Shown piece after piece: positions 20,328-31,994 of a DNA stretch of 44,120 nucleotides. This DNA comes from Methanoregulaceae archaeon (GTDB lineage Archaea > Halobacteriota > Methanomicrobia > Methanomicrobiales > Methanospirillaceae): contig JAJFVA010000024.1 in assembly GCA_021371995.1 (NCBI GenBank), positions 1 through 44,120 of the forward strand, written 5' to 3'. The position numbers and the translations under genes were made by a program. The notes beneath the pieces were generated by a model, which saw only the letters and a program-made list of their open reading frames with translations, made no database searches and was not told where the DNA came from. How positions within the stretch are numbered: the stretch's first letter is position 1; the number at the start of each line of letters is the position of its first letter.

Positions 20328-20759
20328 TTATCCAACCATGATCTGGATGATGCCGGGGTATTTAAGCATGATTGCATAGACGATTGCCCTGCCTACCCAG
20401 AGCCTGCCCCCGATAAGTTCCCTCAGATCTGATAGCTCCCCAAGTTCCTGCAATGATTCCAGAGCTGCAGCATCGGTAAGAAGAAAACTGTCCGCGACCG
20501 TTGAATCAAAATAGAAGATGACAGGGAGCTTAAGGCGGGAATGGAGAGAAACAGGAAGTTTCTTACCAAGAAGCTCTATCGTGCTTTTATTGAATACAAA
20601 TTCTTTTCCCCCACGGGTTACCGATGAGGGGGTCGCATCCCTCAATAGTTCTGAAAGCCGTTTTCGCTCGGCTACCACCCCATCGTTGATCCTGCCCATC
20701 TCAATTGCCATCCACCGCATGAGGACCGATTCATCGGATAACGGAGGCCGGAATGTCAT
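20328..20759 (-). CDS. UPF0216 (DUF61) family protein
   Basis: 143 residues, the usual size of this archaea-specific family. Recognised from MRWMAIEMGRINDGVV, the RKRLSELLRD block, TRGGKEFVFNKSTIELL, and LPVSLHSRLKLPVIF. A hydrophobic-rich C-terminus follows. No function is known. It sits between two FilR1-like regulators and is not obviously co-transcribed with either. Confidence 0.8.
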   Translation of the reverse strand: MTFRPPLSDESVLMRWMAIEMGRINDGVVAERKRLSELLRDATPSSVTRGGKEFVFNKSTIELLGKKLPVSLHSRLKLPVIFYFDSTVADSFLLTDAAALESLQELGELSDLRELIGGRLWVGRAIVYAIMLKYPGIIQIMVG

Positions 20760-21005
20760 ACCTGTACTGGTAAGTGGGGGTTACCGGTAAGTAAACTATT
20801 CACTCCGGCAAACAGCAGGATAACCAAGATGGAAGGATAGTGACGGCTTTATTGTTCAGGCGGTTATCTTTTACCTCCTTACAGGCCCGGCTGTATCAGC
20901 AGAAATGTGGCCTGGACTGCAGGTACGAATCCGCTTTTCCCAATCTCTTGACCAAAACTATCAAGGGGAGTGCTGCCAGCTATTGTTGAGGGACACCCGG
21001 GTCAC

Positions 21006-21761
21006 ATGGTATACGATTTTGAGCCCTCCGACATCAGTGATACGCAGGCTCTGGTACGTTCCCCCCTCAAAATCCGGATCCTTCTTCTCCTTTCAGACGG
21101 CCCCTGTAACCTGGCGCAGATCAGGGATGCTACCGGGAGTTCATCACAGGCACTCATCCCACGAATGAAGGGACTGGAGTCACAGCTTCTGATCGAACAA
21201 AAAGAATATTATTACTCGCTCACTCCTCTCGGAAAGGTCATTACCCTCAACATCAGGAATTTTATTGCAACGACTGCCACGATTAAGCGACACCATACAT
21301 TTTTTGCTGCACATGACACCGGAGCTATTCCCCTTCCACTTCTCTCAGGGATTGGGTGTCTTGCCCACGCAGATCTTATCCAGGACAGGGCTGGCGAGGT
21401 GAACCAGGTATATTCCCTTTTCCTGTCGATTATTAATGAAGCGAACCACATCCATGGCGTTTCATCGGTCATGAGCCCGAATATGGGGGAGTGCCTTGCG
21501 GGACGAATTACTGCAGGGATACCGGCAGAACTGGTTGTCACCCAAAAAGGAGCTGAAAAACTCCGGGAAAAACCCTATATAGCTTTCATTGAGGTCCTCC
21601 TGAATTTTCCCCATTTCAGGGTATGGGTGCTCCGGGAACCGGTGAAGATCGGGTTAACGGTGACTGACAGGTGCATATCCCTTGGCCTGTTCAAACGGGG
21701 AGAGAATGTGTATGATATCTCAAGTGATCTCTACAGTACTGATCCCGGGGCAATTGTATAG
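21006..21761 (+). CDS. FilR1-type regulator paralogue interrupted by an amber codon near the C-terminus
   Basis: 251 residues as read. The ATG at 21006 is chosen over the GTG at 20970 because it gives an N-terminus colinear with the paralogue at 19250-20059 (19 residues to the common QAL-RS motif in both). Winged helix about 12-80, FilR1 middle domain about 125-250, with GLTVTDRCISLGLF and YDISSDLYS. The frame stops at TAG 21759-21761 exactly where the paralogue has Trp (AVKWG). Reading on gives GEELFGFFRDASEPFSL and a TGA at 21813-21815; the full protein would then be 269 residues, identical in length to the paralogue. A TGG-to-TAG change is the simplest explanation. Loss of 18 residues from the domain end may impair it. 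Confidence 0.82.
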   Translation: MVYDFEPSDISDTQALVRSPLKIRILLLLSDGPCNLAQIRDATGSSSQALIPRMKGLESQLLIEQKEYYYSLTPLGKVITLNIRNFIATTATIKRHHTFFAAHDTGAIPLPLLSGIGCLAHADLIQDRAGEVNQVYSLFLSIINEANHIHGVSSVMSPNMGECLAGRITAGIPAELVVTQKGAEKLREKPYIAFIEVLLNFPHFRVWVLREPVKIGLTVTDRCISLGLFKRGENVYDISSDLYSTDPGAIV

Positions 21762-21947
21762 GGGGAGGAGCTCTTCGGGTTCTTCAGGGATGCATCCGAG
21801 CCGTTTTCGCTTTGATCAAGACAGAATGCCCAACATTCCCACAGGGAACCCCGGTCTCAGAGTCCTGATTCCCTGTTCCTGAATCATAGATACCACGCTG
21901 AATGAAATGTAACCGGCCCTGCATGCACCTTTTCCCAAAAAAGAGAT

Positions 21948-22199
21948 TCACCAGCGGCCGACCGTTGCTGCAATAATCTGCTCAACAGTATTTCGGGGGA
22001 TGTTCAGGTGACCGCCTTTATTTACCGCTACCCAGTTATTGAGTGCAAGGGCAACGGTGAGAACCTCATGCGAGTTATGGGTGGCACTGATAATCCATCT
22101 ACAGATGTCATTTTTATTGGTAATTGTCACATCGTATGAATATTCGATCATCTCCAGTTGACTCATTATCAGAACCTGAGTGTCCACCTCTTGTGCCAT
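21948..22199 (-). CDS. Small hypothetical protein
   Basis: 83 residues, no signal or membrane segment. An AGGGATG ribosome-binding site lies 7 bases or less before the ATG at 22199. The sequence is balanced and compact (for example YSYDVTITNKNDICRW, then ALALNNWVAVNKGGHLNIPR), suggesting a small folded domain. I do not recognise the family. It stands alone, downstream of a tRNA gene on the same strand. Confidence 0.55.
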   Translation of the reverse strand: MAQEVDTQVLIMSQLEMIEYSYDVTITNKNDICRWIISATHNSHEVLTVALALNNWVAVNKGGHLNIPRNTVEQIIAATVGRW

Positions 22200-22290
22200 G
22201 GTTCATCCCTGGATTTCCTGATACCATTGGTTGCGATGCAATAAAGGAGAGGCGGGATCCGGACTCCAAAAAAATCCTCATGAAAATCGA

Positions 22291-22364
22291 TGGGCTCGAG
22301 GAGATTCGAACTCCTGACCTCCGCCATGTCAAGGCGACGTCATAACCAGCTAGACCACGAGCCC
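22291..22364 (-). tRNA. tRNA-Val(GAC)
   Basis: Read on the minus strand, acceptor GGGCTCG pairs with CGAGCCC, followed by discriminator A. The anticodon stem TCGCC/GGCGG encloses the loop TTGACAT, giving anticodon GAC (valine, codon GUC). The T arm AGGAG-TTCGAAT-CTCCT is perfect. The D arm is GTCT...TGAC-like with one imperfect pair. CCA is not encoded. No intron. Confidence 0.93.
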
Positions 22365-31410: not shown

Positions 31411-31994
31411 CAGGTAAATTTTCCAGGCATCCTTTAAAACTGCCGGAAATCACCCTGATAAAACCGGTAATATTCAGAGATACGAGAGGGTTTTTTCTTG
31501 AGTCCTATAATAAATCTGAATTCGAAAAAATTGGGATCATCACCAACTATGTTCAGGATAATCATTCATGTTCTGAAAAAGGGGTAATCAGAGGGCTGCA
31601 TTTCCAGAGCGTGCACCCTCAGGAGAAACTGATCAGGGTGGTGAGCGGGTCTGTCTATGATGTTGTTGTTGACATCCGTAAAGGATCTCCCCATTTCGGG
31701 ATGTATGTCGGCGTATATCTTTCCGATAAAGATATGACAATGATCCATATCCCGGCAGGATTTGCCCATGGATTCCTTTCGATGGAAGCCAATACTCATG
31801 TTCATTATAAAACATCAGAATTTTATTATCCTGAACATGATTCCGGTATTCGCTGGAATGACCCGGACATTGGGATCAACTGGCCGCTGGATGAAAGTGG
31901 GATCGGGGAACCAATCATATCAGAAAAAGACAGCAATCTTCCCAGATTGAGAGATATGAAATCTCCTTTTTCTTTTGAGGGAACCAAACGATAG
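31407..31994 (+). CDS. rfbC: dTDP-4-dehydrorhamnose 3,5-epimerase
   Basis: 195-residue cupin enzyme of the dTDP-L-rhamnose route. The catalytic base His65 lies in RGLHFQ, followed by [20 protein letters not shown] and [32 protein letters not shown] is the family C-terminal block. ATGA start overlap with rfbA. The stop is TAG (31992-31994), showing that amber is an ordinary terminator here. Confidence 0.95.

Follow-up and report, generated by a model that had tools for sequence, protein, structure and literature searches.

In a Methanoregulaceae archaeon (assembly GCA_021371995.1, contig JAJFVA010000024.1), an accessory one-component transcription regulator carries an in-frame TAG where its relatives carry a tryptophan codon. 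We estimate at roughly three in four the probability that one nonsense substitution has recently changed TGG to TAG and that the ribosome stops there, leaving a regulator that is probably non-functional or weakened. According to this scheme, one recent substitution would have turned TGG into TAG; the ribosome would halt there and release a protein of 251 residues, deprived of Trp252 and of the remaining C-terminal helix predicted to close a phospholipase-D-like domain. The gene would then be a young pseudogene or a strain polymorphism. Recency, termination at this particular TAG and loss of function are what we infer from the observations below.

Table 1 Features discussed in the text, with positions in the window (the whole stretch of DNA that was analysed, 44,120 nucleotides).
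Feature	Position	Strand	Remark
Intact paralogue, 269 aa	19250..20059	-	same position in the 5 same-genus genomes examined
DUF61 gene (PF01886)	20328..20759	-	left edge of the variable slot
Alternative upstream start, GTG	20970..20972	+	from a mechanical listing; the family alignment prefers ATG 21006
Interrupted regulator gene, winged-helix (HVO_A0261_N, PF25213) + FilR1_middle (PF08350)	21006..21815	+	269 codons if TAG is read through
In-frame TAG at the invariant Trp site	21759..21761	+	residue 252 counted from ATG 21006
17 codons past TAG	21762..21812	+	family C-terminus still recognizable; covers most of helix 247-262
TGA	21813..21815	+	usual frame end of the family
tRNA-Val (GAC)	22291..22364	-	right edge of the variable slot

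The interrupted gene, its locus and its tryptophan

The letters of 21750-21815 are GCA ATT GTA TAG GGG GAG GAG CTC TTC GGG TTC TTC AGG GAT GCA TCC GAG CCG TTT TCG CTT TGA. The amber codon thus stands at the conserved tryptophan with the very letters and coordinates of the preliminary description. Counted from the ATG, the frame comprises 251 sense codons, the TAG, 17 further codons and the closing TGA. A continued translation of exactly 269 residues, equal to the paralogue's length, had also been reported; it holds for this start and depends on it, since a longer open reading frame begins at the upstream GTG and places 263 codons ahead of the TAG. The TAG is the single lesion in the 269 codons, and no frameshift accompanies it.

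Both sides of the stop belong to the same family. With the sequence up to the tryptophan position as query, nearly all strong matches extend to that last residue, and the 17 residues beyond the TAG align to the family in loci of related genomes; judged by these alignments, the two-sided match is not a product of chance. In Pfam terms, the read-through product scores 86.5 bits for PF08350 (cut-off 27) and 36.1 bits for PF25213 (cut-off 35), the truncated one 69.7 and 36.4 bits. With HVO_A0261_N and FilR1_middle both above their curated cut-offs, the protein has the composition of a one-component regulator. A Pfam scan of the regulator found no REC domain, and its frame closes at 269 aa: a FilR1 response regulator proper is ruled out by the missing receiver. 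The earlier label 'FilR1-type' is therefore apt for the winged-helix and FilR1_middle parts and fails for the REC domain, the gene being a one-component relative of FilR1.

Five same-genus genomes were examined, and in all of them the paralogue and DUF61 neighbours keep their position. The slot between DUF61 and tRNA-Val (20760-22364) is filled differently in four of these genomes, where it holds phosphoribosyltransferase-like genes, an NTPase and a transposase-like ORF, and where members of alignment A1 used as queries left no trace of the interrupted gene (best E 0.073); the contig of the fifth ends early. None of 11 same-genus genomes contains a match to the gene at E<=1e-60. A search for mobile-element borders around it returned only short weak repeats. 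As far as these genome comparisons go, the gene is accessory and occupies a variable slot, a place where a gene can be lost at little cost.

In these FilR1_middle proteins, the tryptophan close to the C-terminus is all but invariant. The codon equivalent to the TAG is TGG in 29 of 29 loci from related genomes (L004-L032), and with the paralogue added, a Trp codon occupies 30 of 30 homologous places there. A1 (28 homologues plus the query) has 25 invariant columns, W252 among them; L012 and L022 were excluded from it for stops at other positions, each of them having Trp at this column. W252 is also invariant in alignment A2 (42 homologues plus the query), which takes in 41 of 77 loci from the genome_contigs collection, hand-picked as clean matches. 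Six of the 77 have no residue at the column; the other 71 hold 69 Trp, one Arg, one Phe and no stop, with the caveat that one Trp is coincidental (L141, out of frame) and the Phe comes from a locus frameshifted ahead of the column (L111). Since some assemblies occur in both sets, these are not independent; the absence of a stop at the column extends over 101 partly overlapping comparisons (30 + 71). The conservation claimed beforehand is hence borne out, and the converse situation, in which all orthologues would end at this position, is not what we see: no homologue stops at the column.

Age and predicted consequence of the lesion

Neither the 232 genomes of the order nor genome_contigs provided a close orthologue, the best match having 46% identity, too distant for dating the lesion or for a dN/dS estimate. 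In the full A1, no row deviates at conserved columns as often as the interrupted gene, which is also the most isolated of all. Once each cluster is reduced to one representative, it ranks 3rd of 7, joint 1st of 10 and 4th of 15 for such departures at three clustering cut-offs. It is no outlier by this measure, and long-standing relaxed constraint was dropped as an explanation. Because its departures at conserved positions do not exceed those of equally isolated members, constraint would have lasted until recently, and from the alignment the lesion looks recent. The lack of decay in the tail past the TAG fits a recent mutation; readthrough would give the same. The combination of a single TAG, no frameshift and a constraint comparable to that of equally isolated members is the one expected of a young pseudogene or nonsense polymorphism. 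Together with the invariance of the tryptophan, it supports the initial suggestion of a fresh TGG-to-TAG mutation.

Of the 36 matches within the family at E<=1e-60, three carry a lone in-frame stop, the interrupted gene counted (the others are in G033, TGA, and G067, TAG); in the control family DUF61, 2 of 104 matches do. Enrichment of stops in the regulator family over this control is not supported, with 2 stop-carrying rows among the matches listed.

Several of these cases can be described individually. The DUF61 genes with one in-frame stop come from single genomes of the same family, G027:C81:5550-5930 (TAG) and G046:C70:73786-74010 (TAA). L022 (G067:C14:33436-34209, - strand), a homologue from another family of the order, has a mid-gene TAG after ...NKFL, the rest of its frame being intact; relatives often have Q before EP at this site, and the G067 genome has no PylS above cut-off. 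Finally, L138 of Methanolobus vulcani PL 12/M (NZ_FNCA01000015.1) shows an in-frame TAG at residue 117 of the matched frame, where its relative L099 has Tyr. Methanolobus species encode pyrrolysine, so this TAG might be decoded as such.

We modelled the read-through protein with A2 as alignment (mean pLDDT 91.6, pTM 0.84). The predicted architecture consists of a winged-helix part, a long helix and an alpha/beta domain that closes with helix 247-262. This last helix is modelled confidently over 16 residues, of which the truncation would keep 5 and drop 11. No solved relative was found by sequence. A structural search with Foldseek ranks the archaeal TrmBL2 (5box, E 3.5e-9) and domains of the PLD family, Nuc among them (1byr, E 3.8e-6), highest among solved structures, at 9-16% identity in these rows and with TM-scores against TrmBL2 of only ~0.42. 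On the strength of these matches, the FilR1_middle domain modelled here looks like a PLD-type fold. From the model we infer a loss of function through the loss of most of helix 247-262; the protein minus its 18 residues might still bind DNA.

Decoding of TAG and other readings

In some methanogens UAG encodes pyrrolysine, as stated in passages of an archaeal recoding review (PMC8211752), and the codon could be decoded in this way or be reassigned through a suppressor tRNA. PylS (TIGR02367) exceeds its cut-off in 0 of 101 genomes, the present one included, and in 1 of 14 control genomes; its best match here reaches 26.6 bits against a cut-off of 178.15, and we read sub-threshold matches at ~24-37 bits as the level expected of other synthetases. 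PylB is likewise below cut-off (32.8 bits against 348.2), so the proposed check for pylTSBCD, run for these two proteins, turned out negative for both. MtmB and MTTB have no match in the present genome, the positive control Methanosarcina acetivorans being detected. A CUA anticodon is absent from the tRNAs typed (44 Rfam places), in a partial survey that leaves tRNA-Trp and tRNA-Cys unseen and misses an intron-bearing tRNA-Tyr.

The window's genome has intron-containing tRNA-Met (L063 1501-1610) and tRNA-Tyr (L059 1379-1488) genes, the latter unreported by the Rfam tRNA search.

TAG also separates the in-frame genes of A-ATPase subunits H and I. The V-ATPase_G_2 ORF (PF16999, positions 5-103 of 104; A-ATPase H) terminates in TAG, and a few bases on, without change of frame, comes the V_ATPase_I gene. 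Were TAG read as sense, these two conserved ATPase subunits would be fused; TAG is a working stop in this genome. In 204 kb (the window and eight 20-kb stretches), 198 crude ORFs reach 100 aa or more, and 26 of them, the interrupted gene counted, end in TAG; the median distance to the next stop is 13.5 codons after TAG, 21 after TAA and 20 after TGA. Among 36 hand-picked genes of the window, 19 end in TGA, 15 in TAA and 2 in TAG, both of the latter reaching another stop within 2-3 codons. One is rfbC, which the preliminary description had put forward against reassignment: TAG does terminate it (31992-31994), but the next in-frame stop comes only 3 codons later, making it weak evidence on this point, and we set it aside as proof of TAG termination. 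The broader statement that general reassignment is unlikely finds support in the searches for PylS, PylB, MtmB and MTTB and in the way the ATPase H and I genes are arranged. On the same grounds we reject pyrrolysine, which is close to excluded, and give next to no credence to UAG decoding by either route.

Programmed or near-cognate readthrough, which would produce a mixture of 251- and 269-residue proteins, is in our view highly improbable. The tail past the TAG is intact and in frame, and in-frame stops in bacteria are reported in one study to occur in genes under purifying selection on average; the same study describes the stops as tending toward short persistence only, on the scale of polymorphism (PMC7918605). 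Against readthrough, no relative has a stop at the column, and a stop conserved together with its extension across relatives, by which programmed readthrough is recognized, was not found among them. The 102 bases of RNA that begin with the TAG show no folding beyond that of shuffled sequences (z = 0.51). Of the two branches proposed at the outset, this one has only the intact tail in its favour, and a recent mutation would account for that tail just as well. A more specific version, in which a pyrrolysine-less methanogen maintains a leaky UAG and low-level readthrough at the invariant Trp doses the regulator as a mostly inactive 251-residue form with a little active 269-residue form, strikes us as barely plausible. 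Readthrough, if proven, would be notable, as passages of the archaeal recoding review tie it to selenocysteine and pyrrolysine only (PMC8211752). Overall, recoding is unlikely.

The remaining readings take TAG as a stop or doubt the letter itself. The 251-residue protein could be the working form in this species: it retains a complete wHTH and most of FilR1_middle (profile positions 4-115 of 128). A truncation tolerated in this way is nevertheless very unlikely, given that the A1 homologues carry the C-terminal helix region, that W252 is invariant in A1 and A2, and that the helix is modelled with high confidence. Second to the recent nonsense substitution we rank an error of assembly or base calling, or an allele of a minority strain in the draft consensus, the real gene being intact; we grant it a small chance. 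With its 43 contigs the assembly is a draft, the substitution stands alone with no further lesion, a run of five G borders the TAG site, and one assembly of the species was compared, with no closer copy in genome_contigs. Lone consensus substitutions are, however, uncommon in well-covered assemblies, which counts against a base error. If the recent nonsense substitution is what it seems, its import is small: it adds another single-lesion gene, in an accessory regulator, along with a clear negative result on stop-codon recoding for this methanogen.

Relation to known systems

With the genes that encode pyrrolysine (mtmB, mtbB, mttB), the interrupted gene shares an in-frame UAG in a methanogen; it differs from them by its genome, in which PylS, PylB, MtmB and MTTB are absent by search. 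The likeness to TrmBL2, other TrmB-like regulators and phospholipase-D-fold proteins is one of fold only.

FilR1 of Methanosaeta harundinacea is described as a wHTH-DUF1724/PF08350-REC response regulator, so that an N-terminal DNA-binding domain and PF08350 are common to both proteins (PMC5847659). Its REC domain is placed at residues 276-446 (PMC3991700), whereas the present gene is 269 aa long and has no REC.

The one-component HVO_A0261_N + FilR1_middle regulators of methanogens, represented by the paralogue and by the A1 and A2 homologues, have the same PF08350 domain, wHTH region and length, and the same conserved residues, including those encoded after the TAG. The present gene differs from them in forming an isolated branch, at 46% identity or less, and in having TAG for the Trp codon.
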